DNA from: Rhodocyclaceae bacterium
Lineage (GTDB): Bacteria; Pseudomonadota; Gammaproteobacteria; Burkholderiales; Rhodocyclaceae
DNA: 64,000 nucleotides
Assembly (NCBI GenBank): GCA_020445745.1
Contig: JAGRGB010000200.1
Span: 1-64,000, forward strand
Reading direction: 5' to 3'
Below the pieces are notes generated by a model. That model saw only the letters and a program-made list of their open reading frames with translations, had not been told where the DNA came from and ran no database searches. Below, in pieces: positions 1-15,080 of the stretch. The first letter of the stretch is position 1. Every line of letters begins with the position of its first letter. The translations under genes and the position numbers were made by a program.

Positions 1-291
1 AAGCGGCTCGGGTGCGCGAAGGGCGTGGATCACACACAGCGGTTTCCCGACAGCCGGGACCACACGCAGCGCACCGCCCTTCGGGCAGGCGACGAATCGG
101 GCAGCGCAGGGGAGAATCACCCGCCATCGCGTTCGACGCCGGCATGCCTGTCAGGATCGCCGATGATTCCCACGGCCAACCGCCGGCGCCTGCGCAGCCG
201 CCTGCTGACGCAGTGAGCGCCCGAATCAGCGCAACCCGCCGAGCCGACATGGACACCTGACGCCTGCGCCGGCCTGGCCCGAAAAAATCGC
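1..291. other. gene-free flank of the DGR locus
   Basis: No open frame here looks like a protein I recognise. The stretch is the 3' flank of the minus-strand DUF4062-FGE gene and ends at the hairpin that follows VR1. I see no TR-like or VR-like sequence in it. Confidence 0.4.
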
Positions 292-310
292 GGCGCCGCT
301 GCGCGGCGCC
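292..310 (-). terminator. hairpin downstream of VR1
   Basis: On the minus strand this reads GGCGCCGCGCAGCGGCGCC: an 8-bp perfect stem with a GCA loop. It starts 52 nt after the end of VR1 and is followed by six T (282-287 on the plus strand are A), so it could act as an intrinsic terminator. The same 19 nt recur after each of the other three VRs, which suggests it is also the cruciform/hairpin used in DGR target recognition. Confidence 0.6.
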
Positions 311-316
311 CACTGT

Positions 317-1600
317 TCAGCGCTTCCGCGGGCCAGCGCCCAGCGGCGCGGCGGCCGGCGAAACGATGGGGGAACCGCGACACACCCGAAAGCCGATGAT
401 GTTGTCGCGGTAGACGGGGGGGAGGCCGCTGCGGTCGGCCGCGCGACAGCCCTGCGGACGGAAGTCCCACGACCCGCCGCGCAACACCCGGAACGCGTCA
501 CCACCCGGCGCGGTCCTGGGCGGCTCATCGGATTCGTTCAGGCACCACTCCCAGACATTGCCGGCCAAGTCGAGCACCCCCTCCGCCGAGCCACCCTGCG
601 GATACACGCCCACCGCGGTGGTCTGTTCGAGATACCAGGGGCCAAGGTTGTCCAGCTTCTCATTCACGTTGGCCATCCCGGGCTGGTAGCGACCGCCCCA
701 CGGAAACTCGCGCCCGTCGGGCCCCGCCGCGGCCCGCTCCCACTCCTGCTCGGAGGACAGGCGGATCTCGTCGTCACCCAGTTGCGCGGACAGCCAGCGG
801 CAGAAGGCGGTCGCCTCGTACCAGCTGACATCGGTGCGCGGGCGGTTGGGCTGCGGCCAAGAGGATTCCGCGGGCCCGGGCATCTTCTTTAGGGCCTGCC
901 ACCAGCGCGCGTCATCGTAGCCGCCGGCGTCAATAAAGCACTGGTACTGGATGTTGGTGACCGGATAGCGCGCGATGAAGAAACGCGGCAGCTCGATCGA
1001 TTGGCCGCCCTGGTAGCGGAACGCACCGGTCGGGATCTCGACCCAGTCGATGTCGGGCAACAAGGTCGCTGCCCGGCGAGTGGCCGACGGGCGACGGATC
1101 GAACGCTCGGCCGCGATCCTAGACACTGAATTCCGGACGGCCAGTGCGAGCTCTGCCGCATCGGAAAACTCCTTGACCACCGCGGTTTCGAGCAGGCGTC
1201 GGCGCCAGGCCTCGATACGCTTGCCGCGCTCGTTGTCGCCGGTCACGCTGTCCATCATGGTTGGGACCCAAGGCGCATCCTCGCGCAGCATGAAGATGAG
1301 CAGAAGCTTGCCGGCAGCGCTGGCCGCCTTCATCTCCAATTCGGTGATCGACAGGCCTTCCGGATTCCCGGCGCCGGACGGCACGAAACCGTAGCGCCAC
1401 GCGATGAGCCCGACATAGATGTCGCACTCGGCGACCCGCTTCAGGCAGACATCGAGCGGACGGTCGTCGCGCGCCAAGTCTTTCTCCATCGCGATGACCA
1501 TGACCCCATGCGTCTGGTTCAGCGCCCGTACCACTGCCTCCCTGTGCTGCTGCAGGTCCTGGAAGCTCGACGAAAGATACACTGTGAGGAACTCGCTCAT
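317..1600 (-). CDS. DGR target 1: DUF4062-FGE-like (C-type lectin) protein
   Basis: 427 aa from the ATG at 1600; an upstream in-frame start at 1636 would add 12 residues, and neither start has a clear Shine-Dalgarno. Residues about 5-110 match DUF4062 (VYLSSSFQDL near the start, then a YVGLIAWRYG segment), a TIR-like Rossmann-type domain common in STAND and conflict proteins. From about residue 180 an FGE-sulfatase/SUMF1-like domain follows, with the [11 protein letters not shown] and RVLRGGSW signatures. The last 60 residues are VR1, so the predicted ligand-binding face is the diversified part. The gene is divergent from the TIR-SLOG gene. Function inferred: a sensor whose binding tip is retuned by the DGR and whose DUF4062 part signals. 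No binding partner can be read from sequence. Confidence 0.85.
   Translation of the reverse strand: MSEFLTVYLSSSFQDLQQHREAVVRALNQTHGVMVIAMEKDLARDDRPLDVCLKRVAECDIYVGLIAWRYGFVPSGAGNPEGLSITELEMKAASAAGKLLLIFMLREDAPWVPTMMDSVTGDNERGKRIEAWRRRLLETAVVKEFSDAAELALAVRNSVSRIAAERSIRRPSATRRAATLLPDIDWVEIPTGAFRYQGGQSIELPRFFIARYPVTNIQYQCFIDAGGYDDARWWQALKKMPGPAESSWPQPNRPRTDVSWYEATAFCRWLSAQLGDDEIRLSSEQEWERAAAGPDGREFPWGGRYQPGMANVNEKLDNLGPWYLEQTTAVGVYPQGGSAEGVLDLAGNVWEWCLNESDEPPRTAPGGDAFRVLRGGSWDFRPQGCRAADRSGLPPVYRDNIIGFRVCRGSPIVSPAAAPLGAGPRKR
363..493 (-). repeat. variable repeat VR1
   Basis: 131 bp aligned without gaps to the TR at 8546-8676. I count 17 substitutions at TR adenines (for example AAC to TTC, GGC, CTC and TAC) and 3 elsewhere: one at the second base, TCC to CCC, and CGT to CGC. 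It encodes residues about 370-412 of the DUF4062-FGE protein. It is the only VR with non-adenine differences, so it may have been copied longest ago. Confidence 0.93.
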
Positions 1601-1794
1601 CACTCGGCCGGCATTCCCTGTTGAGGAGGCCTTCATTCTAGCGGCCCGTCTTCGCGACCGACCACGCCGTTGCGCAGGATCCCGGATACGGCGCCCGCGC
1701 AGACTAGATTAGAAGATCTGGAGCTGGCCCCAACGGCCACCAAAGCGATCCCGCCACGTCCGCCCGTGACTGCTGCACGAAGGAAGCCATTGCC

Positions 1795-3825
1795 ATGCCG
1801 CTACCGTTGCTCGTCCATCTGATCTTCCACCCCGCATCGGATGATGCCCGCAAGCTCGCGATGTCCTTGCACGACGCACTGAACGACGACCCAGCGATTC
1901 CCGGCCTGCGCGTGCCGACCGTGCTGGTCGCCGAGGACGGCAGTGGATTGCCACCGGCCGACTACCGTTTCCTTGAAGCCGAACGCAATGTCATCGTGCT
2001 GCTCGCCGACGACCGCATGGCGATCGAGGCGAGCCAGCTGCCGGCCGGCCGGCGCTCTTGGCCGGACTTCGCCGGCTGGCTGGGAGCGCAGTGCGACGGC
2101 GGCCGGTGCCGGCTGCTTCCGTTCCAGCTGTCGCCCTACGCCTGGCCGATCGACCCCCGCCTCGGCGAAACCAGCTTTCTGCGAGCCTATGCGCGCAGCG
2201 AGGCCTCGCGCGCTGCCTGGATGGCCCGCGCGCTGGTGGTGGAGACCTCGCGCTACCTGCAGGGCGAGGCGCGTGGCGAGCGGGCGCCGGTGCGACTGTT
2301 CCTGAGCCACGCCAAGCAGGACGTGGACAGCGAGCCGCGGGTCTTCGACGAGATCGCCGAGCACCTCGACAACCGCCAGCCGGTGCGCGCCTGGATCGAC
2401 AGCGGGTCGATCCCCGGCGGCTCGCGTTTCGCCGAGGAGATCGAGGCCGGCGTCGAGGATTCGGCGCTGCTGATCCTCGCCACCCGCCACTACGGTGCCC
2501 GGCCGTGGTGCCGCAAGGAGATGTTGCTGGCCAAGCGCCACCAGCGCCCCTTCGTCGTCGTCGATGCGCTGACCGGCGTCGAGACCCGCAGCTTTCCGTA
2601 CGCCGGCAACGCGCCGAAACTGCGCTGGGAGGCCGGCGCGGCCGAGCGCGCGGTCGATCTGCTGCTGAAGGAGACGCTGCGCCACCAGCACGCGCGGCTG
2701 GTGCTGGCGCAGTTGCAGCGCGCAGGCGACGTGGTGCTCGCGGCACCTCCGGAACTCGCCACCGTCGTGCGGCTGGCGAAGGGCAGCCACGTGCTCTACC
2801 CCGACCCGCCCCTCGGCGACGAGGAGATGGAGGAACTGGCGCCCCTCGACCTCACCATCGAGACACCGCTGCAGCGCGCCGCCGAGGGGCATGCGCTGGC
2901 GAAGATGCCGGTCGCCCTGTCGATCTCGGTCAGCCCGGACCTGGCGCACCATGGTCTCACCGCAAAGCACCTGGATGCCGCACTGGTCGAGATCTCCAGG
3001 CAATTGCTGGTGCGCGGCGCGGTGCTCGAATACGGCGGCCACCTGGGCAGCGACGGCTACACGCAGGCGCTGTTCGACATGGCGCGCGAATACGCCGCGC
3101 TGAGCGGGCTGCCGCCGGCCGAACGCATCATCAACGACGTCGGCTGGCCGCTGCCGCTGGAGACCCTGCTGCCCGAGACTCGCGCGAAGAACCAGCGCGT
3201 CGGCGTCTTCCGCCGCATCGCGCGCCCCGAGGGCGTCGAGGCGCTCGACCCGGCGACCTTCGTCGATGAGCCGGCCTACTTCCCAGCCGACAGCGCGGAG
3301 CGCCGCTACGCCTGGGCGCGCGGCATGAGCGCGATGCGCGCCTTCCAGTGCGGCGGCGAAGGCGCCCGCGCGCGCATCGTGCTGGGCGGCCAGACCGGCG
3401 CCCAGGCCGACGGCTCGCCCGTCGACAAGTGGTATTCGGGGCGCATCCCCGGCGTGATCGAGGAGGCGCTGCTGAGCCTGCGCCACGGCCAGCCGCTGTT
3501 CGTGATCGGCGCCTTCGGCGGCGCCGCCGCGATGGTCGCCGAGCTGCTCCAGGGCCGGCGGCCGGCAGCCTTCTCGTGGGACTTCCAGAAGCAGGCGCCG
3601 CACGCCGAGGCGATGCGCGCGCTCTACCTGAAGCATGGGCAGGACTGGGAGGACTACGAGCAGATGGCTGAGTTCTTCGCCGACAGCGGCGTCGATGGGC
3701 TGGCCGCGGGCAACCGGCTCAGCGCCGCCGAGAACCGCGAGTTGTTCGCCTGCCGCGACCTTGGGCGCATCGTCGAATTGCTGCTGACCGGGCTGGCCCG
3801 CGTCAACGGTGCGGGGGTGCCGTAG
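1795..3825 (+). CDS. TIR-SLOG protein within the DGR locus (not a VR target)
   Basis: 676 aa. Residues 1-160 form an alpha/beta domain that resembles a degenerate TIR-like fold. A clear TIR domain follows (about 166-300), starting RLFLSHAKQD, with a WCRKEM segment whose Glu (about residue 241) fits the catalytic Glu of NAD-cleaving TIRs. The C-terminal part (about 370-665) looks like a SLOG nucleotide-sensor domain, with glycine-rich strands EYGGHLGSDGY, IVLGGQTGA and VIGAFGGAA. Established knowledge: TIR and SLOG domains co-occur in nucleotide-signalling antiviral systems, where SLOG binds an NAD- or ADPR-derived ligand. There is no VR, no FGE domain and no VR-type hairpin. It is divergent from target 1. 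A shared effector for the diversified sensors is my inference. Confidence 0.8.
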   Translation: MPLPLLVHLIFHPASDDARKLAMSLHDALNDDPAIPGLRVPTVLVAEDGSGLPPADYRFLEAERNVIVLLADDRMAIEASQLPAGRRSWPDFAGWLGAQCDGGRCRLLPFQLSPYAWPIDPRLGETSFLRAYARSEASRAAWMARALVVETSRYLQGEARGERAPVRLFLSHAKQDVDSEPRVFDEIAEHLDNRQPVRAWIDSGSIPGGSRFAEEIEAGVEDSALLILATRHYGARPWCRKEMLLAKRHQRPFVVVDALTGVETRSFPYAGNAPKLRWEAGAAERAVDLLLKETLRHQHARLVLAQLQRAGDVVLAAPPELATVVRLAKGSHVLYPDPPLGDEEMEELAPLDLTIETPLQRAAEGHALAKMPVALSISVSPDLAHHGLTAKHLDAALVEISRQLLVRGAVLEYGGHLGSDGYTQALFDMAREYAALSGLPPAERIINDVGWPLPLETLLPETRAKNQRVGVFRRIARPEGVEALDPATFVDEPAYFPADSAERRYAWARGMSAMRAFQCGGEGARARIVLGGQTGAQADGSPVDKWYSGRIPGVIEEALLSLRHGQPLFVIGAFGGAAAMVAELLQGRRPAAFSWDFQKQAPHAEAMRALYLKHGQDWEDYEQMAEFFADSGVDGLAAGNRLSAAENRELFACRDLGRIVELLLTGLARVNGAGVP

Positions 3826-3955
3826 GCGAGCCGATCGCCTGCTGCCCGCGAGCGTCAAGCTCTGGTTCCGGGGACTCGCCGCGGTGCCGAGCTGCGGGAG
3901 CGGCGGCTGCGCAGGACGCTGCCCGCGGCATGGCATGTGGCCCGAAACACATCGC

Positions 3956-3974
3956 GGCGCCGCTGCGCGGCGCC
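3956..3974 (-). other. hairpin downstream of VR2
   Basis: On the minus strand this is the same 19-nt perfect hairpin found after the other VRs, 52 nt beyond VR2. The following T-run is degraded (ATGTGTTTC), so it is a poor intrinsic terminator. Conservation despite that favours a role in DGR target recognition. Confidence 0.6.
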
Positions 3975-4022
3975 CAGTGAACAGCGTCTCCGCGAACCAG
4001 CGGCCAGCGCGCCGGTGGTCAG

Positions 4023-5321
4023 CTAAACGATGGGGGAACCACGACACACCCGAAAGCCGATGAAGTCGAAGCGGTAGCCGGGGGAGAAGTTGAGGCGGTC
4101 GGCCGCGCGACAGCCCAGCGGATGGAAGTCCCACGACCCGCCGCGCAACACCCGGGACCTAGAGCCATCGGACTCCCAGGCCGAACCGTCCGAAGGCGCA
4201 CCCTGGTAGTCGTCATGCCAGCCGTCCTGGCACCACTCCCAGACGTTGCCGTGCATGTCGTGCAGGCCGAAGGCGTTGGCCGGGAAGCTGCCGACCGGCA
4301 TGGTCTTTTCCCGGCACTTGCCCTTCTTCGAGCCGTTGTATGTGTAATGGCCGTTGAAGTTCGCCTGCGCCGTACTCAGGCGCTCGCCGAAATGAAACGG
4401 CGTGGTCGTGCCGGCGCGGCAGGCGTATTCCCATTCGGCCTCGCTTGGCAGCCGGTAGGCTTCGCCGGTCTGCGTAGACAGCCACGCACAATAGGCCTGC
4501 CCGTCGTTCCAGCTCACGTTGATGACCGGTCGGTCTCCCCGACCCCAGCCCTCGTCGCCCGGCAACTCGTCGCCCGTCGCGCGGACGAATCGATCGTAGT
4601 CGTCGAAGGTGACCGCATGCACGCCCATCGCGAATGGCTTCGCAATGCACACCTCGTGCCGTGGCCCTTCGTCATCGCTGCGCTCCGGCTCATCCGGCGG
4701 CGAGCCCATCAGGAAACAACCGGCCGGAATCACCACCATCAGCGGCCCTTCGCCGCCGTCTGCGAGCCGATCGCGGAAGGTCGTGCCCGGCGCGGGCGGG
4801 GCCGGTGTTTTGCGTGGCGCCGGTGTTTTGCGTGGCGCCGGTGTTTTGCGCGGAGCCGATGTTTTGCGTGGAGCCGGCGTTTCGGGCGGGGGCGATGCGC
4901 CGGACGGAGCCGTCGTCTTGCCTGCGTCACCGTCGAGATGCAGTGCCAGCGGTTCGAGCAGCTGCACGAGCCCGCCATGCCCGTCCTCCCCTCCCCAGCC
5001 GATCAGGTCGGCGGCCTGGAGTCGACGGAAGCCGTAGGGAGGCTTGACATCTTCGATCAAGGCCGGGAACAGGATGTCCTTGCTCTTTCCGGTGTCGGCC
5101 TCTTCGAGCACGTAGTCGCTGCGAAGAGAGGCCGCCGACCACAGCACGACGACGGCGCGCGCATCATCCAGTTCGCGCTCGATCTCATCGTGCCAGCGCC
5201 GGCCGACCCGGGTGTTCACGTCCTGGAAGACGCGCCAGCCGCGCGAGCGCAACGCGGCCGCAACGAGATCCGCAATCTTGCGGTCGCTGCGGGCGTAGCA
5301 CAGGAAGATGTCGTGGGCCAT
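4023..5321 (-). CDS. DGR target 2: TIR-FGE-like (C-type lectin) protein
   Basis: 432 aa from the ATG at 5321, chosen because the TIR domain starts at once (MAHDIFLCYARSD); the frame stays open for another 136 codons upstream but that extension has no domain. TIR domain about residues 3-125, with Glu in YVLEEAD as the likely catalytic or structural acidic position. A Pro/Lys-rich linker (about 140-175, repeated KTPAPR) leads to a canonical FGE/SUMF1 domain (IPAGCFLMGSPPDEP, then GNVWEWC and RVLRGGSW). VR2 encodes residues about 389-431 and the stop lies 1-2 codons after it, so this protein lacks the short Pro/Ala-rich tail of the other targets. Divergent from target 3 across 379 bp. Inference: NAD-cleaving or scaffold TIR triggered by ligand binding to a diversified lectin face. 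Confidence 0.87.
   Translation of the reverse strand: MAHDIFLCYARSDRKIADLVAAALRSRGWRVFQDVNTRVGRRWHDEIERELDDARAVVVLWSAASLRSDYVLEEADTGKSKDILFPALIEDVKPPYGFRRLQAADLIGWGGEDGHGGLVQLLEPLALHLDGDAGKTTAPSGASPPPETPAPRKTSAPRKTPAPRKTPAPRKTPAPPAPGTTFRDRLADGGEGPLMVVIPAGCFLMGSPPDEPERSDDEGPRHEVCIAKPFAMGVHAVTFDDYDRFVRATGDELPGDEGWGRGDRPVINVSWNDGQAYCAWLSTQTGEAYRLPSEAEWEYACRAGTTTPFHFGERLSTAQANFNGHYTYNGSKKGKCREKTMPVGSFPANAFGLHDMHGNVWEWCQDGWHDDYQGAPSDGSAWESDGSRSRVLRGGSWDFHPLGCRAADRLNFSPGYRFDFIGFRVCRGSPIV
4027..4157 (-). repeat. variable repeat VR2
   Basis: 131 bp, gap-free against the TR. All 19 differences that I count fall at TR adenines, including five AAC codons changed at both adenines to TTC or CTC. It is the most diverged VR and ends at the stop region of the TIR-FGE gene. 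Confidence 0.95.
4801..4890. repeat. 18-bp tandem repeat in the target 2 linker
   Basis: Units start at 4801, 4819, 4837 and 4855, with a degenerate fifth at 4873. The first two are identical and the next two differ at a few bases. On the coding (minus) strand each unit adds one six-residue Pro/Lys-rich repeat to the linker between the TIR and FGE domains. Copy number could change by slippage and alter spacing without breaking the frame. Confidence 0.85.
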
Positions 5322-5700
5322 CGCAAGCCTGGGCGCTTCAATGTCGATCCGCCCCGATGATCGCAAACCCGGCGGCATCCTCAAAGCCCGACGGCATGCC
5401 GCTGCCCGCACCCGGCGGGCGCCCTGCTGCCATCGAAACTCTGCCTTGCCTTTTGCGGTGTCGAAATCTCCCGTCAGCAGCCGCGGATGCCACCAAGAAG
5501 TGACTGGCCGCAGTACCTGGTTCAGGAACGCGATCGCCACGGCGGCGATGCGGACGGCATCCGGGCCGGCGTCCGCGAGCACCTGGCGCATCTCGTTCAC
5601 GCCACCGCGGCAATGCCGGCGCCATGCGGCCGGCCCGGCCTTCACGCTTGCAACGCCCGGCCGTATGATCGCGGCAAGCGCACAGAGATGGCACGGGCCG
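5322..5700. other. divergent intergenic region between targets 2 and 3
   Basis: 379 bp that must hold the outward promoters of both divergent target genes. I cannot point to a convincing -35/-10 pair or operator. Both coding frames are open into it, but the extensions carry no domain. Confidence 0.4.
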
Positions 5701-8436
5701 ATGACGGATACACCACCACGGGTCTTCATCAGCTACGCCCAGGACAAGGGCTTGGTTTCCGCCTGGGTCAGGGATTTCTCGAAGCGGCTCGAGGAGGCCG
5801 GCTTCGACCCGATCCTCGACCAGGAAGACGACGTCCACCCCAAGGGCCTTATTGCCTGGATCGACGATCGTTTTCGGCAGGCAGACTGGGTCGTTTGTGT
5901 CTGCAACTCGACTTACTCGCGGTATTTCGAGGCGGAAGCCGACACCGGCAACGAGGGGCTCGGCGTCGCCCATGAGGCCCGGCTTATCCGTAACGAGCTT
6001 TTCGCGAACAAGGGAGCCAACACGCGCATCGTGCCCATACTGCCGCCATCGGGCCAAAAGGGCGATGTCCCGCATCCGCTGAATCAATACCTCCATTACT
6101 CGATGGAGCTCGAATTCGCAGGTCTTGTAAGCCGCCTGCGCCACCATGGGGGCAACGACGCCAAGGCAGCCGCAAAGAACACACGAGCCAAGACGCCCGC
6201 TCCGGATGGTTCGATCGCCAACCCCTACCCCGGCCTCGCCGCCTTCACGCCCGAGCAGCATGAACTCTTCTTCGGCCGCGACGAGGACACCGCCGCTGTC
6301 GTCGAGCAGCTACGCCGCGACGGATTCGCCAGCGTCATCGGCGGCTCGGGCACCGGCAAGTCCTCGCTGGTCGCGGCGGGCGTTCTGCCGGCGTTGAGGC
6401 AACAGGCGCCGCAGACGCACTACCTGCGCTTCAAGCCGCGAACCGACCCGCTGCGTCGGCTCGCCGAGGCAATCGACGCCATGCTGCCCGAGGACAAGGT
6501 CCAGCTCGGCAAGGCGCGCGGGGAGCGCATCGCGGCGGCCCTCGCGCAGGCACCCGATGACGCGGTCCGCGGCTACCTGCTCGCCGATGCCGCGCCGCTG
6601 CTGGTCTTCGGCGATCAGTTCGAAGAGTTGTTCACGCAGAGCGATTCGCAGCGGCGAGACGCCTTCCGGCCGGTATTCGAGGCACTGCTGCGCCACCAGG
6701 CGATCCGGCTCGTCGTCACGCTGCGCGTCGAGTTCATGGCGCCTTGGATGCAGTGGCTCGGCGGCCAAGCCTTCGCCCGCTCGCTGGTGCCGCTCGACCC
6801 TATCCGCGACGACGCCCGGCTGCGCCGCATCATCGAGGCGCCGGCCGAGGCGGTGGGCGTCCCCGTCGAGCCGGCGCTGCTGGACGAGCTGCTGCCAGCC
6901 GCGCGTGCGCTCGCTGGCGCACTGCCGCTGCTGGCGCTGGCGCTGCAACGCCTGTTCGGCGGCGGAGGCGGGTCGCATGGGATGACGGCGGCCTGCTATC
7001 GGGCCATCGGCGGCCTGGAGGGCGTCGTCCTTACCGCCGTCGCACCGATCGACGCGGCGATCGAGGCCGATGAGGCGCTGGCGGCGGCGAGCGAGCGACT
7101 GTTCGCCGAACTGGCCACGGTGATCGACGGCATCGCCACCCGCCGCAGCGCCGACAGCGAGCGGCTGCGGCGCGAGCCGGGCATTGCCACACTGCTCGAT
7201 GCGCTGCGCGCGATCGGCTTTGCCACCGACCCGGACGAAGGCCACGTCGAGCTGGCCCACGAGAGCCTGCTGCTGCACTGGCCGCGCCTGCGCCAGTGGT
7301 GCGAGCGCTACGCCGACAAGCTCGCGCTGCGGCGCCAGGCGGAGCACGCTTCAGCCGAATGGGCGCGCGCCGGCGAGGGCCTCGGCTCGGCACGCCTCCA
7401 CCAGTGGGGTTGGGAGCGACAGCGCCAGGCCCTGCTGGCCCTGCAGGCAATCCATCAGATCGAACCGAGACGGGACCCGGACTTCATCGACCCTGGCATC
7501 GCCGCCTGGCGCGCCCTGGAAGCCACACTCGACGAGCCGCTGAAGAGCTTCCTCCAACCCGAGCCGCTGCGCCTGCTGGCCGAGTTGAGCAGCGACGACA
7601 CGCCCCACAACCGCCGCGAGGACATCGGCCGCCGCCTGGACCAGATGGGCGACCCGCGCCGCGGCGTCGGTCTCGACGAACAAGGCCTGCCCGATATCGC
7701 TTGGATTGAGATCCCTGCCGGCGAAGTCACGCTGGAGAGCGATCCACCGAGCAGCTTCCCGGTCACGGCCTTCGAAATCGCGCGCTACCCGGTGACCTGG
7801 GAACAGTACTACGCCTTCCTGCACGCCGCAGACGGCTTCCGCGACGCCCAGAACTGGCAGGGCCTGTGCGAGCCGCCGGAGGATTTTGGCGAGCCGAAGT
7901 GGGCCTTCCTGAACCACCCGGCGATCATGGTCTCGTGGTTCGATGCGATGGCTTTCTGCGCCTGGCTCACGCGGCAGTTGGAGTGCGCAAACGGCACGGT
8001 GATCCGCCTGCCGACCGAGTGGGAATGGCAATGGGTGGCGCAGGCCGGTAGCGAGGCGCGTGAATACCCGTGGGGCAAGGATTGGCAGCCGGCGCGCGTA
8101 AACTCGTTCGAATCCGGCATCGGCCGAACCACGGCGGTCGGCATGTACCCGCTCGGCGCAACGGCCAAGCTGCCGGTCATGGACCTGGCCGGCAACGTGT
8201 GGGAGTGGTGCCTGAACGAGTACGATGTCCCAGACCGCGTCGATCCCGGCGTTGGCGCGTCCCGGGTGTTGCGCGGCGGGTCGTGGGGCAACCATCCGCG
8301 GAGCTGTCGCGCGGCCCACCGCGACGACCTCTCCCCCGGCAACCGCCTCGACGGCATCGGCTTTCGGGTGTGTCGTGGTTCCCCCATCGTTCCGCCGGCC
8401 GCCGCGCCGCTGGACGCTGGCTCGCCGGCGCGCTGA
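5701..8436 (+). CDS. DGR target 3: SEFIR/TIR-nSTAND NTPase-FGE-like protein
   Basis: 911 aa from the ATG at 5701, where the first domain begins ([11 protein letters not shown]). Residues about 8-150 are a SEFIR/TIR-type domain. An nSTAND1-type NTPase follows: the lead-in [19 protein letters not shown], Walker [10 protein letters not shown] (about 214-222) and Walker B-like [12 protein letters not shown] (about 300-311), then a helical region to about 640. From about 665 an FGE-like domain runs to the end, with [10 protein letters not shown] and [10 protein letters not shown]3 covers about 854-897. Established knowledge: STAND proteins oligomerise on ligand sensing and bring N-terminal effector domains together. 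Here the sensor end is the diversified lectin-like domain. It lies directly upstream of the TR, in the same orientation. Confidence 0.88.
8260..8390 (+). repeat. variable repeat VR3
   Basis: 131 bp, gap-free against the TR only 155 bp downstream. All 16 differences that I count are at TR adenines (for example AAC to GGC, CTC, GAC and CAC; CAG to CGG). The 3' end reads CCCCCATCGT where the TR has CCCACATCGT, a difference shared by all four VRs. Confidence 0.95.
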
Positions 8437-8444
8437 ACACTGTC

Positions 8445-8463
8445 GGCGCCGCGCAGCGGCGCC
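8445..8463 (+). terminator. hairpin and T-run downstream of VR3
   Basis: GGCGCCGCGCAGCGGCGCC, an 8-bp stem with a GCA loop, 54 nt after VR3 and 8 nt after the stop codon. Seven T follow at 8469-8475, so it should terminate the target 3 transcript. The stem and loop are identical to those after the other VRs, which fits a second role as the DGR target hairpin. Confidence 0.7.
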
Positions 8464-8511
8464 GCGCATTTTTTTGCGGCGTTCTCGGCAGGCGTCGACC
8501 ATACTGGCTGG

Positions 8512-8527
8512 GCAGGCTTCGGCCTGC
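8512..8527 (+). other. UUCG hairpin just upstream of the TR
   Basis: GCAGGC-TTCG-GCCTGC: a six-bp perfect stem closed by a UUCG-type tetraloop, ending 18 nt before the TR. It may be part of the structured TR RNA leader. Its role is inferred from position only. Confidence 0.4.
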
Positions 8528-8545
8528 GGGGCGGCCTGGAACCGG

Positions 8546-8676
8546 TCCCGGGTGTTGCGCGGCGGGTCGTGGAACAACCATCCGCAGAACTGTCGCGCGG
8601 CCAACCGCAACAACAACTCCCCCGACAACCGCAACAACAACATCGGCTTTCGGGTGTGTCGTGGTTCCCACATCGT
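8546..8676 (+). repeat. DGR template repeat (TR)
   Basis: 131 bp of non-coding DNA that reads like the end of an FGE domain: SWNNHPQNC, then Asn-rich triplets, then IGFRVCRGS. It contains eleven AAC codons. Randomising both adenines of AAC cannot give a stop codon, which is the classic DGR codon. The four VRs differ from it almost only at adenines, and the adenines lie on the plus strand, so the TR RNA is transcribed rightward. It lies between target 3 and the avd gene, and it lacks the 19-nt hairpin that follows every VR. A GC-rich palindrome at 8689-8706 may end the TR RNA. Confidence 0.95.
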
Positions 8677-8856
8677 CAGCACCCCGGGGCCCGCGCCTGC
8701 GCGGGCAGTCCGGAATTGCCGGCCGACCACGGTTTGCCGGCCGAGGCCGGGGGGCAAAACGATGGCGCAGGCCCGTCCCGTCCGCACGCGGCGGCATCGC
8801 GTCGGGCGCAGAGTCGTGCCGGGCGCCGCCTGGATCCGTTCCCGCGGCGCCCACCT
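8677..8856. other. non-coding stretch between the TR and avd
   Basis: 180 bp with no credible gene. It contains the perfect palindrome GCCCGCGC-CT-GCGCGGGC at 8689-8706, thirteen bases past the TR, which could fold in the TR RNA. In studied DGRs the template RNA includes structured flanks, so this may be functional RNA. Confidence 0.4.
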
Positions 8857-9204
8857 TCAACCGCTGCCGGCCTGCTTGATCCAGCCGCCCAGCAGCTTGC
8901 CGATCTCGGCGACCATGCCGCTTACATGCTGGTACTGCCCGTCACTGAACCACGCCCAGCGGTGTGCCAGGCGCAGGTACAGGCGCAACCGGTCGAGCGC
9001 CGCGTCGGCCTCGGCAAGCGCCTGCACGCGGTGCTCGCCCCGCGCGCTGCGGGCCGCGAACACGGCCTCCTGGCAGTCCAGCGCGGCATCGGCCAGGCGC
9101 CGCGTGACGGTGGTCCGGTAGGGTTTCGGAAAACGCTCCACCTTAGGGAGCAACCACGCCAGCAGGTCGAACAATCGGGTCAGCAACACCAGCTCCTGTG
9201 CCAT
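8857..9204 (-). CDS. avd: DGR accessory variability determinant (Avd-like, S23/four-helix bundle)
   Basis: 115 aa, ATG at 9204 preceded by GGAGGA seven bases upstream. The protein is all helix, with the family pattern [17 protein letters not shown], then [18 protein letters not shown], then [19 protein letters not shown], ending [10 protein letters not shown]. Established knowledge: Avd forms a pentameric barrel that binds the RT and template RNA and is needed for mutagenic cDNA synthesis. Its length matches the family (about 110-130 aa). It is on the strand opposite to both the TR and the RT, an unusual order, since avd-TR-RT are usually collinear. Its start lies 35 bp from the RT start, so divergent promoters would be very compact. 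Confidence 0.9.
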
Positions 9205-9239
9205 CGTCTCCTCCAAGTCATAGCCCGGCCTTCGAAGCC

Positions 9240-10541
9240 ATGTGCAACTGGCCCGCCTTGCTGCAGGCCTACGCCCGGGCGGCACGCGCCAAGCGGCGCC
9301 GGAGCGCGGTGGCGGCCCTCGACCACCGCATCGCCGACCGGCTGCTCGAGCTGCAGCGCGAGCTGCTCGACGGCGACTACCGCCCCGGCCGTTACACCCA
9401 CTTCGTGATCCACGAGCCCAAGCGCCGGCGCATCAGCGCCGCGCGCTTTCGCGATCGGATCGTGCAGCATCCTGGAAACCGTGGTTGGACATGCCCGAGG
9501 GTGCGGCGGGCGTGCTGTCTGGCAAGGCGCGACGAGGCCGCAGGGCCGCCCCCTGCAACGAGGAGCAACGCCGCCAGGCGGCGTGCCAGTCGCGCCATCG
9601 GGCACGTAGCGGACCCGCCCGGCGGGTCAGCCCAGAAAGATCGCATATGTCATTCATGCGCGAGATTTCACACTGGCCCGAGAGCGGTCAACTGCGGTTT
9701 CCAGGATCTTGCGCTGTGCGCCATCATCGAGCCGCGCTTCGAGCGAGTGTTCATCGCCGACAGCTACGCCAACCGCGTCGGCAAGGGCACCCACCGCGCG
9801 ATCGCCCGGCTGCAGCATTTCGCGCGCTGCCACCGCTACGTGCTACGTGCCGACATCCGCCAGCACTTCGCCTCGATCGACCACGCGATCCTGCTCGACG
9901 GCCTGACGCGCAAGGTCCCCGAGCCGGACCTGATCGCGCTGATCGAGCACATCCTCGCAGGCGGCCGCGACGCTCTGCGCCACGAGTACGACATGGTGTG
10001 GTTCGCCGGCGACGACCTGCTCGCGCAGTGCCGGCCGCGGGGCCTTCCGATCGGCAACCTGACTTCGCAGTTCTGGTCGAATTGCTACCTCCACCCCTTC
10101 GACCTGTTCGTCAAGCGCGAGCTCGGCTGCCGCGCCTATCTGCGCTACGTGGACGATTTCGCGCTGTTCGCCGAGGACAAGGCCACGCTGTGGGCGTGGA
10201 AGGCAGCGATCCGCGAGCGCCTGGCCAGCCTGCGCCTGACGCTGCACGAGGGCAGCACCCAGGTCGCGCCGAGCGCCGCCGGCACGCCGTGGCTCGGCCA
10301 GGTGATCTACCCGACACGGCGCCGGCTGAAGGCGCGCAAGCTGCGCTTCGCCCGCCGCCGCCTCGAAGCCCGCTACCGGGCCTACTGCGCCGGCGAGATC
10401 TCCTTCGCCGAGTTCGACGCCAGCGTGCGTGGCTGGCTCGCCCACGCTGCGCATGCGGACAGCTGGGGCCTGCGACGAGACGTGCTGGCGCCGTTCGTGC
10501 TCGCGCCCGGCGACGTGCCGGGGCGGCCCCGGCGGCGCTGA
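9240..10541 (+). CDS. DGR reverse transcriptase with an 80-codon in-frame insertion
   Basis: 433 aa from the ATG at 9240 (a GTG at 9198 is an alternative; no clear Shine-Dalgarno). Residues 1-77 hold the N-terminal helices and the FVIHEPKRRRIS...FRDRIVQ segment; residues 158 on resume with ALCAIIEPRFERVFIADSYANRVGKGTHRA. Motif A with the catalytic Asp is in RADIRQHFASID (about 203). The DGR-type motif IGNLTSQ (about 268-274) replaces the QGxxxSP of retrons and introns. The catalytic YVDD is at about 302-305. Without the insertion the protein would be 353 aa, normal for the family. The insertion falls between fingers motifs and leaves all catalytic residues intact and the frame open, so activity is possible but unproven. 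Established role: copies TR RNA to cDNA with errors at adenines for retrohoming into VRs. Confidence 0.9.
   Translation: MCNWPALLQAYARAARAKRRRSAVAALDHRIADRLLELQRELLDGDYRPGRYTHFVIHEPKRRRISAARFRDRIVQHPGNRGWTCPRVRRACCLARRDEAAGPPPATRSNAARRRASRAIGHVADPPGGSAQKDRICHSCARFHTGPRAVNCGFQDLALCAIIEPRFERVFIADSYANRVGKGTHRAIARLQHFARCHRYVLRADIRQHFASIDHAILLDGLTRKVPEPDLIALIEHILAGGRDALRHEYDMVWFAGDDLLAQCRPRGLPIGNLTSQFWSNCYLHPFDLFVKRELGCRAYLRYVDDFALFAEDKATLWAWKAAIRERLASLRLTLHEGSTQVAPSAAGTPWLGQVIYPTRRRLKARKLRFARRRLEARYRAYCAGEISFAEFDASVRGWLAHAAHADSWGLRRDVLAPFVLAPGDVPGRPRRR
9469..9707. mobile_element. small inverted-repeat element (MITE-like/palindromic) inside the RT gene
   Basis: Bounded by perfect 13-bp inverted repeats: ATCCTGGAAACCG at 9469-9481 and CGGTTTCCAGGAT at 9695-9707. 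Exactly 240 bp (9471-9710) separate the two halves of the conserved RT segment, so the frame is kept, and the element has no stop in the RT frame. It contains internal palindromes (CGCCGCCAGGCGGCG and ACCCGCCCGGCGGGT). It encodes no transposase. There is no clear target duplication: the pre-insertion site could be CAGCATGCGCTG or CAGCTTGCGCTG. It resembles in principle the in-frame palindromic elements known from Rickettsia genes, or a MITE. Confidence 0.7.
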
Positions 10542-10571
10542 TACGGCCGGCCCTACCCCCGAAGAATTCGC

Positions 10572-10590
10572 GGCGCCGCTGCGCGGCGCC
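10572..10590 (-). other. hairpin downstream of VR4
   Basis: The same perfect 19-nt hairpin on the minus strand, 53 nt beyond VR4 and seven bases after the stop of target 4. The following T-run is broken (AATTCTTC). It also lies just after the RT stop on the other strand, where it could slow transcription of both convergent genes. Confidence 0.6.
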
Positions 10591-10597
10591 CAGTGGG

Positions 10598-13504
10598 TCA
10601 GCGTTGCGGCGAGCCAGCGTCCGGCGGCGCGGCGGGCGGTGGAACGATGGGGGAACCACGACACACCCGAAAGCCGATGCTGATGAAGCGGAAGTCGGGG
10701 GAGAGGTTGAAGCGGTCGGCCGCGCGACAGTCCTGCGGATGGAAGTACCACGACCCGCCGCGCAACACCCGGGACGCTTCGCCGCCGGGGCCGACGCGCT
10801 CCGGATCGTGAAATTCGTTCAGGCACCACTCCCAGACGTTGCCGGCCAGATCAAGCGCGCCCTCGACGCTCGCGCCCTGCGGATAGCAGCCGACCGCGCT
10901 GGCCGCTCCGAGATAGACGCCACCTTCCCAATCGCTCTCGTCGCAGTTGGCGTGGCCCGCCCGGTAGTCCTCGCCCCAGGGATAGCTCCATCCCTCGGTG
11001 CCGCCCGCCGCGCGCTCCCACTCCCACTCGGTTGGCAGGCGGATCGGCTCGCCCAGCGCGTCCGACAGCCAGCGACAGAAGGCCATCGCCTCGAACCACG
11101 AGACATCGCTGCGCGGCATGTTCGGCTCCGGCCACGACGGCTCGTCCGGGGCATCGATGCGCCGATCGAGCCCCGCCCAGAACCGTTCCTCGCGGTAGCC
11201 GCTGGCGTCGATGAAGGCCTGGTACTGGGCCACCGTGACCGGATGACGGGCGATCGCGAAAGCCGGCAGGCCGGGGTGGGTTTGCTCCTGGTAGCCAAAC
11301 GGCGCCGGCCCCGGGATCTCGACCCAGGCGATGTCCGGCAGCCCCCGCGCGTCGAGGCCGACGCCGGGCCGCCGGTCGAGGCCGAAGCGGCCGAGCGCGC
11401 GCCCGGCGGCGGCACGGGGGCGCGGGTCCGGCCAGCGCTCGATGTCGTCGATCGCGTGGCCCCACTGTTTGTCGATGCGGCTCAGCAGGGCCGGCGCAAG
11501 TTCGGGCGAACCGACGTGCTGCCACACCGCCGAGGCGAGCTCCGGATTGGCCGCGGCCAGCCAGCCGACCAGCCGTGCGGTCGCGGCGACATCGCCGGCG
11601 CAGGCCTCGGCGGCGATCTCGGCCACCACCTCCCAGCCGCTGCGCGCCCACCAGCGATCCGAGGGCCAGAAATCGGCGGCGACGCGCCGGCCGCCGCGGC
11701 TCGCCTCGATCAGCACGTGGCTGGCGAGGTATTCCTGCAGCAGCTGGTGAGTGAAGCGCAGGTCGTCGCCGCTATGTTCGAGCACACTGGCGTCCCGCGA
11801 GAAATCCAGCAGGGCGTCATCCAGCGCGACGTCTGCGCGTGGCAGCGCGGTCTGGGCGCCGTCCTGTTCGGCGACGCCCGCGAGCCGCTGCAGCTGCTCG
11901 GCCAGAGCGGTCAGCCCGGCGATCCACGCGCCCTCGTCCGGGACGCCGTCGGCATCGTTGCGCTGCGCACGGGCCTCCCCCTCGCGACGGTACAGCACCG
12001 ACAGGAAGCCGCGGAAGAGCTGGGCGCGGTTGTGCGGCAGCTGGGGCAATGCGGCGATGATCTGCAGCAGGTAGGGATTGCCGGCGATGCGCAGCAGATT
12101 GCGCGGATCAAAGCGCACGGTGCGCCAGGCATGGTCCTCCTCGCCAGTGGTGGTCGAATGGACGTCCGGCGATTGTCGCGGAATCTCGTCGACTGTCCAG
12201 AACAGCGCGCCCGCGCCGGCCGCCTCCCACTTGCGCCAGGCCGACGCCACCGCCTCGCCGCCCGCAATGCGCCAGAACAGCCCCTCGGCCTCGGCCTGCG
12301 GCTTGTCCATCGCATCATGTAGCCGGTGCAGGAAGTCGCGCACCTGCGGCGGCGACAGCGGCTGCAGGCCGAGCGTATCGAACGGCAGCGACAGCTCGCC
12401 GAAATCCTTCTCGCGGCAGCTCACGATCACCGCGGCGATCCGCTCGTCGGCCGCGAAATCCTTGATCTCTTCGGCCTTGCCGTGTCGCTGGCGGGGCGGG
12501 ATCTCGTTCACCGCGTCGAGCAGCAGCACCAGCCGGCCCTGGTCGCGCAGCGCCTCCAGGTGCTTGCCGAAGGCGGGCAGCGCGTGGGCCGCGAAATCGG
12601 CCAGCGACATGCCGGCCCGGGTCCAGCGCCCGAGTTCGAGCAGCACCGGCACCGGCGCATCGACACTGCCGAGGGCGGCGCGGGCATATTCGACCGCGAT
12701 GCGCTGGAGCGAAAAGGACTTGCCCGCGCCGGGCTCGCCCAGCACCGCCAGGCGGCGCACCTTGCGCCCCGGCAGATCGCGGTAGGCGTCGAGCACATCC
12801 TCGTAGCGGCGGGCTTCCGCCTGCTCCGCCTGCGGCTCGACGCCGAACGCCTGCCACACCGCATGGGTGTCGATGCGCACCGACTTGAGCGCACGTTCGG
12901 CCGACAGCAGCGAGCGGTGCTCGTGGCCTTCGAGCGGCACGTAGCGCGCCTCGCGGTCGGAGTAGTGGCTGTGCACCAGCAGGCCGAGGGCGTCGAGTTC
13001 GGCGCGCCGCTGCGGCTCGGGCACGACCTCGGCACGGCCTTCCTGCACCGCGTCGCCCGACTGCGCGGCGGGCAGCCGGGCGCGGACGGCATCCATCAGC
13101 GCGTCCAGCGTGGCCGCCTCGTCCGCCCTGCAGCCGACCAGCTGGCATTCGCAGACAACGAACGGCAGTTCCGCGCCGTCGATCAGCAGCACGACGACCG
13201 GCTTCCCGATCCGGTCGGCCAGCAGCAGCTCGCGCTTCTGCCACGTGCACGCCGCCGAATCCTCGCCGACCACTGCCAGCACCAGGTCGGCGCGGCGCAG
13301 GGCCTGCTCGATCTGGTCGGCGAAATCCGCGATGCCCTCCGCCATCGACACCTCGTCGCGCCACGCCCTCGCGCCCAGACGCTCGACGCGCGCCTGCACC
13401 CGGGCGGCCCAGGCGTGGGCGTGGCCGCCCCGCGGGTAGCTGACGAAGACTTGGCGACCGACGAATTCGGAGGCGGCGGGCATCGCTGGGGGGCTCGGCG
13501 GCAT
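10598..13504 (-). CDS. DGR target 4: TIR-NACHT-FGE-like protein
   Basis: 968 aa from the ATG at 13504; in-frame ATGs at 13483 and 13525 are alternatives and none has a clear Shine-Dalgarno. TIR-like domain about residues 15-140 (RQVFVSYPRGG, then TWQKRELLLA with the expected Glu). A NACHT-type NTPase follows, with Walker A LGEPGAGKSF (about 253-262) and Walker B LVLLLDAVNEIP (about 321-333), then a helical region. The FGE-like domain starts near 720 (LPDIAWVEIPGP) and includes [10 protein letters not shown] and [10 protein letters not shown]4 covers about 910-953. Established knowledge: NACHT/STAND proteins are sensors in bacterial antiphage defence. It faces the RT gene tail to tail. Inference: ligand sensing by the diversified tip triggers NACHT oligomerisation and TIR activity. 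Confidence 0.88.
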   Translation of the reverse strand: MPPSPPAMPAASEFVGRQVFVSYPRGGHAHAWAARVQARVERLGARAWRDEVSMAEGIADFADQIEQALRRADLVLAVVGEDSAACTWQKRELLLADRIGKPVVVLLIDGAELPFVVCECQLVGCRADEAATLDALMDAVRARLPAAQSGDAVQEGRAEVVPEPQRRAELDALGLLVHSHYSDREARYVPLEGHEHRSLLSAERALKSVRIDTHAVWQAFGVEPQAEQAEARRYEDVLDAYRDLPGRKVRRLAVLGEPGAGKSFSLQRIAVEYARAALGSVDAPVPVLLELGRWTRAGMSLADFAAHALPAFGKHLEALRDQGRLVLLLDAVNEIPPRQRHGKAEEIKDFAADERIAAVIVSCREKDFGELSLPFDTLGLQPLSPPQVRDFLHRLHDAMDKPQAEAEGLFWRIAGGEAVASAWRKWEAAGAGALFWTVDEIPRQSPDVHSTTTGEEDHAWRTVRFDPRNLLRIAGNPYLLQIIAALPQLPHNRAQLFRGFLSVLYRREGEARAQRNDADGVPDEGAWIAGLTALAEQLQRLAGVAEQDGAQTALPRADVALDDALLDFSRDASVLEHSGDDLRFTHQLLQEYLASHVLIEASRGGRRVAADFWPSDRWWARSGWEVVAEIAAEACAGDVAATARLVGWLAAANPELASAVWQHVGSPELAPALLSRIDKQWGHAIDDIERWPDPRPRAAAGRALGRFGLDRRPGVGLDARGLPDIAWVEIPGPAPFGYQEQTHPGLPAFAIARHPVTVAQYQAFIDASGYREERFWAGLDRRIDAPDEPSWPEPNMPRSDVSWFEAMAFCRWLSDALGEPIRLPTEWEWERAAGGTEGWSYPWGEDYRAGHANCDESDWEGGVYLGAASAVGCYPQGASVEGALDLAGNVWEWCLNEFHDPERVGPGGEASRVLRGGSWYFHPQDCRAADRFNLSPDFRFISIGFRVCRGSPIVPPPAAPPDAGSPQR
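10644..10774 (-). repeat. variable repeat VR4
   Basis: 131 bp, gap-free against the TR. All 16 differences I count are at TR adenines; many AAC codons became TTC or CTC, enriching Phe and Leu on the predicted binding face. It shares the CCCCCATCGT 3' end with the other VRs. Confidence 0.95.
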
Positions 13505-14040
13505 GGCGACTGCATTCGACCGCATTGGCCGCAGCCGGTCAAGCGCCCGCTCCCTGGCGCCGGAGGCCGCGCCCGTTGAGCCGTTCGAGGGACTGGCGCC
13601 CTTGTGGGTGGCCACCAGGCAGCAAGATTCGGGCAGCACGCCGGCACGGGATGCGCCACTCGATCGCCGCAAGGCCGTCCTGTTGCGGCCTTGCAGGCGG
13701 CGTCCACGGGCAGACCAAGGTCGACGACGGTGAATCTTCGCGGACTCCGGACCCGTCGCTTGCGGGTTCGAGCCCCGCGGCGCCCACCCATTCCGTCCTG
13801 CCCACGGCGCCGACCCGGACGCCGCCGCGGGCCGCGCCGGGCAGTATGCCGCTGGGCAGTCCGGCTGGCCGGGTGGTCGTCACGCGCACTCCCGCGACCA
13901 TCGACCGGGGCGTCGCGAGGGCCGCGAAAAAGTGCACGTTCGCGCGCGATTCCGTGGCCCCCGCCGCCCCGGCGCCATCAATTCCGCACCGTCCCTGCCG
14001 TTAAGGAACCATCGCCCGTATGGCGACAACGGAAGGGTTC
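13505..14040. other. gene-poor boundary between the DGR locus and core genome
   Basis: About 535 bp with no protein I can support. At 13762-13788 lies a tRNA T-arm-like segment: GCGGG, loop TTCGAGC, CCCGC, then GGCGCCC and ACC. No matching 5' acceptor strand, D-arm or anticodon arm was found within 120 bp upstream, so it is not a complete tRNA or tmRNA. It could be a relic of an attachment site, but that is speculative. Confidence 0.35.
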
Positions 14041-15075
14041 ATGCAGGTACTGATCGTCGACGACACACCGCTCAACCTGACGCTGATGCAGACCTTGATC
14101 GGCAAGCTGATGGACGGTGAGCCGGTGGCGTTCTCGGATCCCCGCCAGGCGCTCGACTGGTGTGCCACGCACCGCCTGGACCTGCTGATCGTCGACTACA
14201 TGATGCCGATCATCGACGGCATAGAATTCATAAGCAGATTCAAGGCCTTGCCAGCGCACGAGGACGTGCCGATCCTGATGGTGACGGCCGACCACGAAAA
14301 GCAGACCCGCTACGATGCGCTGCAGAGCGGCGCCACCGATTTCCTCAACAAGCCGATCGACCGCCACGAGTTCCTGCCGCGGGTGCGCAACATGCTCGCC
14401 CTGCGCCGGGCCCATCTGCAGACGCGCGAACGCGCCCGCCTGCTGGCCGACGAGGTGGCCCACGCGACCCGCGAGATCCATGCCCGCGAACGGGAAATGG
14501 TCACGCGCCTGGCACGCGCCGCCGAGTTTCGCGATCCGGAGACCGGCGCCCACATCCAGCGCATGTCCCACTACTCCGAACTGATCGCCCGCCAGCTCGG
14601 CGTCGACGCGGAGTATCAGCGCGCGATCCTGCTGGCCGCGCCGATGCACGACGTCGGCAAGCTCGGCATCCCGGACAGTGTCCTGCTCAAGCCCGGACGC
14701 CTGACCAGCGACGAGTTCGAGGTCATGAAGCGGCACCCGAAGCACGGCTTCGACATCCTCAACGAATCGAGTTCGCCGGTGATCCAGCTGGCCGCCAGCA
14801 TCGCGCTCTCCCACCACGAGCGATTCGACGGTGACGGCTATCCGCACGGGCTGGCGGCCGAAGACATCCCGCTGGAGGGGCGCATCGTGGCGGTCGCCGA
14901 CGTCTTCGATGCGCTGACGTCGAGCCGGCCGTACAAGAAGGCGTGGAGCCTGGACGACGCCCGCGCGCATCTCGAGTCCGGCCGCAGCCGCCATTTCGAC
15001 CCGGCATGCATCGACGCGTTTCTCGGCGCCTGGCCCCAGGTGCTCGCCATTCGCGAGCGCTTCGGCGAGGACTGA
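14041..15075 (+). CDS. response regulator with HD-GYP c-di-GMP phosphodiesterase domain
   Basis: 344 aa from the ATG at 14041 (MQVLIVDD), with GGAAGG just upstream; an ATG at 14020 is less likely. Receiver domain residues 1-120, with the phospho-acceptor Asp in LLIVDYMMP and Lys in FLNKPID. After a coiled linker comes an HD-GYP domain (about 150-340): HDVGKLGIPD holds the metal-binding HD, and HHERFDGDGYP plus the VADVFDALT segment complete the family signature. Role: phosphorylation-controlled hydrolysis of c-di-GMP in the cytoplasm. The hybrid kinase gene starts 5 bp downstream, so the two are probably one operon, and the kinase's C-terminal Hpt is a plausible phosphodonor. Confidence 0.92.
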   Translation: MQVLIVDDTPLNLTLMQTLIGKLMDGEPVAFSDPRQALDWCATHRLDLLIVDYMMPIIDGIEFISRFKALPAHEDVPILMVTADHEKQTRYDALQSGATDFLNKPIDRHEFLPRVRNMLALRRAHLQTRERARLLADEVAHATREIHAREREMVTRLARAAEFRDPETGAHIQRMSHYSELIARQLGVDAEYQRAILLAAPMHDVGKLGIPDSVLLKPGRLTSDEFEVMKRHPKHGFDILNESSSPVIQLAASIALSHHERFDGDGYPHGLAAEDIPLEGRIVAVADVFDALTSSRPYKKAWSLDDARAHLESGRSRHFDPACIDAFLGAWPQVLAIRERFGED

Positions 15076-15080
15076 CCCCG

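Follow-up and report, generated by a model that had tools for sequence, protein, structure and literature searches.

How can one mutagenic template serve four different genes, and is the machinery that would do this still at work? The question is raised by the window analysed here, the first 64,000 nucleotides (nt) of contig C152 (JAGRGB010000200.1) in the draft genome of a Rhodocyclaceae bacterium (4.88 Mb, 217 contigs), where a diversity-generating retroelement (DGR) lies close to the contig start. With a probability of roughly 0.85, we read it as a chromosomal DGR of the cellular lineage with FGE-domain and STAND NTPase targets, in which one template is copied with adenine errors into four genes and whose own reverse transcriptase (RT) was hit by an element resembling a miniature inverted-repeat transposable element (MITE). 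The DGR is genuine, has four targets and belongs to a known kind; it was recently active, and its local RT is damaged. By this account, one template RNA, composed of the template repeat (TR) and a structured spacer, would be reverse transcribed by an RT-Avd complex with errors at adenines, and the cDNA would replace the 3' end of the four separate genes.

The anatomy of the locus is directly visible in the window, beginning with the TR and its variable repeats (VRs):
8545..8676, + strand: template repeat TR, 132 bp
363..494, - strand: VR1, 132 bp; 20 mismatches to the TR, 17 at a TR adenine
4027..4158, - strand: VR2, 132 bp; 19 of 19 mismatches at a TR adenine
8259..8390, + strand: VR3, 132 bp; 16 of 16 mismatches at a TR adenine
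10644..10775, - strand: VR4, 132 bp; 16 of 16 mismatches at a TR adenine
When the four VRs are pooled, 68 of the 71 differences from the TR fall on its adenines, which account for 28 of its 132 bases (hypergeometric chance per VR 2e-11 to 2e-16), and VR2, VR3 and VR4 show zero differences at 312 non-adenine positions. The adenines have changed to T in 30 cases, to G in 28 and to C in 10, four of the last being a single shared position at the 3' edge. Alignment of the repeats and an independent scan for DGR-type adenine bias, run on the first 20 kb of the window, both recover one TR and four VRs, the scan placing them within a few bases of the positions above. A sequence-only reading of this DNA had proposed one TR with VRs in four separate genes; its repeats are confirmed, except that they measure 132 bp when set in register and not the 131 bp it gave.

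The VRs lie in four genes, which we call targets A, C, D and E:
317..1636, - strand: target A, a DUF4062 - FGE-sulfatase protein (Pfam), with VR1 in its 3' end
4023..5729, - strand: target C, a TIR - FGE protein (Pfam); true start probably near the TIR domain
5308..8436, + strand: target D, a SEFIR/TIR - nSTAND1 - FGE protein (Pfam); true start probably downstream of 5308
10598..13504, - strand: target E, a TIR - NACHT - FGE protein (Pfam)
All four carry a C-terminal FGE-sulfatase domain (Pfam E 1e-37 to 9e-61) behind differing N-terminal modules (DUF4062, TIR, SEFIR/TIR-nSTAND1 and TIR-NACHT), as the earlier reading had supposed. We take the DUF4062 and SEFIR modules to be TIR-like. Among the 34 solved chains matched by the FGE profile, the best is 7spq (E 5e-42) and the DGR variable protein 2y3c ranks 25th (E 9e-29); the predicted structure of the FGE domain, with a mean predicted local distance difference test (pLDDT) of 62, is too weak for the VR residues to be mapped on it. 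PADLOC returned partial matches, including bSEFIR on target D and SAVED_TIR on target C, and zero matches on targets A and E. From their domains, and from the related systems of PMC10907252 (cited, like the other papers below, from parts of its text), the targets resemble sensors of intracellular defence proteins, some with a STAND NTPase and others lacking one. Target C also holds an 18-bp tandem repeat (4778-4921) that encodes a linker of Lys-Thr-Pro-Ala-Pro type from TIR to FGE.

Each VR has 15 codons that contain a template adenine, 11 of them AAC; a change at A in these codons never gives a stop, and about 10^15 proteins are possible per VR. Between orthologues these codons are hyperdivergent: the identical share is 2/15 for target C, 4/15 for D and 3/15 for E. 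The other VR codons reach 23/26, 24/26 and 24/26 in the same order, and the remainder of the FGE domain has identities of 0.58-0.74. By analogy with the BPP-1 model system, the cause of this variation would be retrohoming.

The enzymatic part of the locus consists of two genes, one of them interrupted:
8857..9204, - strand: avd (accessory variability determinant); bAvd PF22296 E 4.5e-18 in the open reading frame 8857-9285; ATG at 9204
9240..10541, + strand: DGR-type RT with IGNLTSQ and YVDD motifs; RVT_1 E 1.9e-11; in-frame insertion inside
9470..9709, + strand: in-frame insertion in the RT, 240 bp (80 codons), a 237-bp MITE-like element plus 3 bp, with 12-bp terminal inverted repeats
The avd gene is antisense to both TR and RT. 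The sequence-only reading makes no mention of the insertion. An Avd-like gene and an RT with both motifs had been named from the letters alone; with Pfam support for each, the parts list of a multi-target DGR is full, and together with the 68 of 71 differences at adenines it upholds that reading. Among solved chains, the best match of the RT profile is the 8ub7 reverse transcriptase (E 3e-60). This we take to be the BPP-1 enzyme.

The reverse TRANSCRIPTASE (RT) is interrupted, yet its frame stays open, with 80 codons gained between DRIVQH and ALCAIIEP. The catalytic motifs are intact and the insert sits in a conserved block; a tblastn match of the RT of a second DGR (on contig C174) breaks exactly at the insertion site. 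The inserted element ends in TCCTGGAAACCG / CGGTTTCCAGGA, with three bases added, and its fold, computed with short flanks, is far better than those of shuffled sequences (z -4.67). Matches to it occur in 26 of 121 family genomes, the own genome included, and of 12 other copies inspected two of 237 bp and one of 235 bp show both ends; the remaining ones have no proper end pair at one mismatch allowed, some of them being cut. A target-site duplication finds no support at the window copy (GCA/TCT), the other copies having TTA/TTA (two) and TTA/TCA (one). Short, bounded by terminal inverted repeats and represented by dispersed copies, the insert qualifies as MITE-like. The idea that the element is multi-copy in its own genome was rejected, as there is a single partial second match, on C125 (76% over 85 nt). 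A copy in another family member (L089, G095:C59) lies inside a 539-codon stop-to-stop frame, near its 5' end.

Several points weigh against our reading of the locus. VR1, alone among the VRs, has non-adenine differences (three); the 80 extra RT residues stand in a conserved block that runs without a break in all 20 of the other RTs aligned; and in the predicted RT structure (AlphaFold) the insert has pLDDT below 50. Since the insert is missing from all 20 other RTs, the activity of the local enzyme is doubtful; the model's mean pLDDT of 63.5 is too weak for the effect of the insert to be judged from it.

These points bear on three accounts of what the locus does now. The first, the likeliest of the three and in our view a serious possibility although short of even odds, is that the locus is dead: the MITE-like insertion would have destroyed the RT, leaving the VRs as a recent fossil of past rewriting. 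The in-frame 240-bp insertion in a conserved block, modelled with low confidence, speaks for this, as do insertion-killed RTs with still clean VR/TR pairs already in print (PMC3521204). Three of the four VRs are without a non-adenine difference, so any death was recent; the frame that remains open through the insert also speaks against death, but two of the six reading frames of the element are open, so that an open RT frame does little to show that the protein works. The second account, that the second DGR supplies RT and Avd to the local TR in trans, is unlikely in our estimate. The C174 locus comprises an FGE-VR, a TR, an avd gene in antisense and an RT that lacks the insert. Its TR and VR show 19 aligned differences, 17 of them at A, its avd is 74% identical to the local one and its RT 71% over 275 compared columns, and the covariance model described below places its spacer RNA in one family with that of the window. 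Use in trans has moreover been argued for loci whose RT was lost to MITE arrays (PMC10907252). However, the window VRs match the local TR and not the C174 TR, which differs from it at 33 positions, so the C174 RT would have to accept the local RNA. The third account, no more probable than the second, has the altered RT functional despite its 80-residue insert, by analogy with some in-frame palindromic elements of Rickettsia that are thought to be tolerated (PMC10969869). The element with its 3 bp makes a frame-neutral, stop-free 240 bp and spares the catalytic motifs, but it sits in the DRVVHHALCN block, which has no length variation in 20 other RTs. We conclude that rewriting was active until recently, and that it has now either stopped or proceeds through the RT of the second DGR in trans or through the altered RT.

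Two further contigs with FGE genes were considered. Contig C209 encodes a TIR-nSTAND1-FGE protein next to a TR-like repeat and a cut avd; its TR-like and VR-like repeats have 44 differences, 16 at A, and it is kept as a degenerate or contig-cut locus. The FGE gene of C128 was rejected as a remote target of the window TR, with 36 differences, 13 at A, and no CCCAT edge. This gene (L018, 4558-7785) encodes a TIR-NACHT-FGE protein with a VR-like end and no clean adenine pattern, a non-diversified or abandoned paralogue.

For the template RNA and the target edges, we drew on 56 related loci collected with the RT profile, many of them cut by contig ends. Close RTs come from Accumulibacter, Nitrosomonas, Zoogloea, Chloroflexi and others, and in the genus sample this RT is found in three of six genomes, the own one included. 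Across such loci the stretch from TR to avd is conserved and structured:
8694..8861, + strand: structured spacer of the DGR RNA with three covarying helices; covariance model 125.7 bits, the window being 1 of the 33 training sequences
RNAalifold gives 28 pairs for the 33 sequences. With a structure derived from the same alignment and kinship among the sequences not removed, 97.5% of the cells pair, against 84.3 ± 0.6 after shuffling, and 23 pairs change on both sides, against 9.9 ± 1.8, with 0 of 500 shuffles as high in either case. When the partners are slid by 1-3 columns, pairing drops to 39-51%. The covariance model finds ten copies, spread over four of the 121 family genomes. A close RT (561 bits or more) is present in each of these four and in no other family genome (next 361 bits), and any RT at E up to 1e-40 occurs in 12 of 121. 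Three of the ten copies are training sequences from the own genome and one is L027, which like L030 is a locus of Rhodocyclaceae HKST-UBA162; the six others, in G023 (four), G003 and G046, were not all compared with the training set. In G023 the four RNA-model matches accompany one full and one partial close RT, and might be orphan template RNAs or degenerate loci. Rfam, run on window positions 1-16000, returned mir-339 as its sole match, at E 0.52 and under its threshold.

Two short features join this RNA to the 3' edge of the repeats:
8670, + strand: A8670 within the TR, at its 3' edge; C in all four VRs; candidate IMH* (IMH, initiation of mutagenic homology)
8758..8765, + strand: AACGATGG, exact reverse complement of CCATCGTT at the 3' edge of the four VRs, and complementary to TR CATCGT in cis
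The related loci were covered by the same adenine-bias scan to at most 10 kb on either side. With 70 VRs found in all, 59 pairs from 37 loci have a GFR-codon anchor that is readable in both TR and VR (11 dropped). In 59 of these 59 pairs the edge has A in the TR and C in the VR: 56 by a first rule, and L025 second, L067 and L079 second by a second rule, the first having stopped at another mismatch. The VR edge reads CCAT in 51 pairs by the first rule and in 54 with the three just named; it is not CCAT in five (L030 second, L044, L062, L065 and L072). The TR edge reads ACAT in 43 (first rule). That the A-to-C switch and the CCCAT at the VR edge reflect a protein constraint, the Ser-Pro-Ile end of the FGE domain, and not a recognition mark, strikes us as improbable. 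Most targets do have Pro-Ile there; CCCCAT is kept, however, as Pro-Ile in most, as Pro-Ser in L045, L052 and L060 and as Pro-His in L050, and is kept also where the TR differs (ACAC, ACGT, ACGC). Retention in three reading frames means that protein sequence alone is no explanation.

The bases behind the edge covary with those before ATGG in the spacer, as seen in 26 distinct spacers with one VR each (L031 and L040 have a spacer with doubled ATGG). The match between TR and spacer is 2.85 of 4, against 1.60 when permuted, and that between VR and spacer 2.35 against 1.54, with 0 of 10000 permutations as high in either test and kinship not fully removed in both; for the VR, the second base alone is individually significant (0.77 vs 0.29). 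At positions where TR and VR disagree, within five bases past the boundary, the spacer fits the TR alone 73 times, the VR alone 34 times and neither 33 times, so the helix is primarily a TR-spacer helix. Our reading is that TR and spacer would form a helix at the TR edge, ended by the invariant A, and that the VR could pair one base further.

This TR-spacer helix is a candidate site of cDNA priming, by analogy with BPP-1. In that phage (L098, NC_005357), spacer positions 47-56 pair with VR positions 118-127 in 10 pairs, one a wobble, and the pairing ends at spacer A56. The same spacer bases are not complementary to the TR at that place. A56 is, we assume, the priming base of BPP-1. Its spacer is reported to prime cDNA within IMH*, from an internal spacer adenine (PMC12875486). 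Over 13 phage DGRs including BPP-1, with L099 and L109 near duplicates, VR-spacer pairing scores 16.15, against 13.40 ± 1.22 for permuted spacers (3% as high) and 12.72 ± 1.19 for shuffled VR tails (0.25% as high). In a held-out set of 12 phage DGRs (of 13) the score was 11.83, against 12.87 ± 1.09 permuted (85% as high) and 11.5 ± 1.44 shuffled (41% as high); the top scorer of these twelve, L114, shares its TR/VR edge with L110 of the first set. Over 24 phage DGRs, without L109, 7.4% of permuted and 3.2% of shuffled controls are as high, or 36% and 7.2% without BPP-1. VR-spacer pairing as a general DGR rule is thus unsupported with this statistic, the held-out phage test beyond this lineage having failed.

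Tentatively, and knowing that it may well prove wrong, we posit the following for the present lineage. The template RNA would form three helices, and its N4-GAUGG would pair with the TR 3' edge up to the invariant A, which faces the last G where targets have C. This helix would prime the cDNA, the A would mark the edge of copying, and the C would act as a one-base target switch that spares the template; together with a hairpin behind the VR it would make a portable tag, hence one TR serving four sensor genes. Of the new observations, the RNA structure has the strongest support, followed by the A/C edge; their role in priming and target choice is hypothetical.

The hairpin follows each of the four VRs:
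292..310, - strand: hairpin GGCGCCGC-GCA-GCGGCGCC, +53 after VR1; T6 four bases beyond
3956..3974, - strand: hairpin GGCGCCGC-GCA-GCGGCGCC, +53 after VR2
8445..8463, + strand: hairpin GGCGCCGC-GCA-GCGGCGCC, +55 after VR3; T7 five bases beyond
10572..10590, - strand: hairpin GGCGCCGC-GCA-GCGGCGCC, +54 after VR4
The 64 kb hold exactly four perfect copies of this 19-bp hairpin, one behind each VR, and one further match with a mismatch at 49367. A T6 or T7 run within five bases is present at VR1 and VR3 only. The shared hairpin may be a terminator, a target hairpin of BPP-1 type, or both; its distance behind the VR, 53-55 bp, differs from the 4-34 bp given for phages (PMC3240598).

How, then, might four targets have come together? 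The contig starts at window base 1, and the end of target A lies 317 bases from it; since the locus is cut there, four targets are a lower bound. Among the 56 related loci, three VRs are in reach in one, two in 20, one in 22 and none in 13; none has more than three, and the window with its four is the largest in the sample. The sole related locus with three VRs, L033 (G004:C197; Rhodocyclaceae HKST-UBA163), is from the same genus and has one TAG in its RT frame; both loci found with at least three VRs, the window and L033, have a lesion in the RT frame. The layout of TR, antisense avd and RT recurs in 37 of the 43 related loci with a detected TR, and in the other six the TR lies behind the RT (four), avd is on the RT strand (one) or no avd match was obtained (one). 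We scanned 51 of 65 targets from L025-L080, omitting 5'-cut, very short and over-size-limit ones, and at E up to 0.001 all 51 have FGE, 33 NACHT, 15 nSTAND1, 14 TIR_2, 10 EAD8 and four DUF4062.

Target D matches target 1 of the Candidatus Accumulibacter contiguus locus (L025) over its full length (54% over 937 aa), target C matches the second, RT-adjacent target of the same locus (61% over 431 aa), and the counterpart of target E is target 2 of a locus from Zoogloea (L073; 56% over 965 aa); for target A, the best six matches listed are confined to its FGE part. L025 thus holds full-length relatives of D and C, and L073 of E, but both differ from the window in having two VRs each in the fetched stretch and an RT without insert. 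As D, E and C match the relatives' targets, the usual two-target layout appears to be held by D and E, with C and A added. We infer that a two-target locus, with D upstream and E downstream of the RT, gained C and A upstream. What would have been gained is a shared target cassette, composed of the FGE-type C-lectin domain, the VR, a CCCATCG boundary and the hairpin 53-55 nt on; any gene that acquires it would become a target. Plain gene duplication or gene conversion in place of retrohoming, to which the paralogous FGE ends and 3' flanks would lend themselves, is highly improbable as the source of the four near-identical ends, as their differences are limited to template adenines (68/71) while adjoining bases diverge freely.

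The sequence-only reading was right about a multi-target DGR; that the multi-target state is unusual by itself is not supported. A tabulation of 2012 lists three DGRs with four VRs, in Pelodictyon BU-1, Ralstonia CMR15 and Pseudogulbenkiania NH8B (DiGReF, PMC3521204), in Treponema denticola ATCC35405 a single TR serves seven targets (PMC4891356), and a later survey counted multiple VRs in 271 of 948 DGRs (PMC6642488). STAND/TIR/FGE targets of related RTs are themselves the subject of PMC10907252, which names Accumulibacter and Nitrosomonas as hosts. With four-VR and seven-target DGRs and the same target architecture in print, the window is the largest in our sample and not a new kind. The closest likeness is to the clade 5 (5D) DGRs of Thiohalocapsa PB-PSB1 (PMC10907252), a likeness that rests on the target modules and the C-lectin VR domain and not on an RT tree. 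Like the window, these comprise several DGR loci per genome, have STAND (nSTAND1/NACHT) or TIR targets with a C-terminal FGE/C-lectin VR, and show MITE-like elements in or replacing the RT, with RT-defective loci beside intact ones. Clade 5D commonly has two targets, whereas the window has four in one 13-kb locus and a MITE in-frame within the RT. The DiGReF four-VR DGRs share with it four VRs in paralogous targets, the comparison covering the repeats and not the domain make-up (PMC3521204). T. denticola likewise has one TR and RT for many targets, and its TvpA (2y3c) matches the FGE profile, but its seven TvpA-type targets are spread over the genome; the parts of PMC4891356 consulted make no mention of STAND/TIR modules for them.

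BPP-1 resembles the window in adenine mutagenesis, Avd, a TR followed by a structured spacer, an IMH/IMH* difference and a hairpin behind the VR (PMC3240598, PMC12875486), the last two having their apparent counterparts here in A8670 versus C and the four hairpins; unlike the window, it has a single phage target and avd, TR and RT on one strand. In BPP-1, target and template are known to be told apart by sequence elements, and the IMH/IMH* difference is said to keep the TR from being a recipient (PMC4891356). Such differences also occur in T. denticola and in archaeal DGRs, one archaeal set having TGGGGT versus TGGAAT (PMC4372165). The literature searched, parts of papers with most subscription journals outside it, mentions neither an A/C edge nor a covarying spacer RNA in the present lineage. 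How cDNA enters the target was still called unknown in 2026 (PMC12875486).

One mutagenic template feeding four defence-type sensors would let a cell vary several receptors together, and the locus suggests how this might be arranged, namely by a target tag (FGE end, VR, CCCAT boundary and hairpin) on otherwise different genes. The conserved RNA and the single A/C difference turn the questions of target versus template and of cDNA entry into point-mutation tests, for which the lineage offers many natural copies.

One further gene lies within the cluster, between targets A and C:
1795..3825, + strand: TIR - SLOG cluster 2 protein (Pfam), in which the adenine-bias scan shows no VR
Lying within the DGR cluster, it could couple a SLOG sensor to TIR signalling by the targets.
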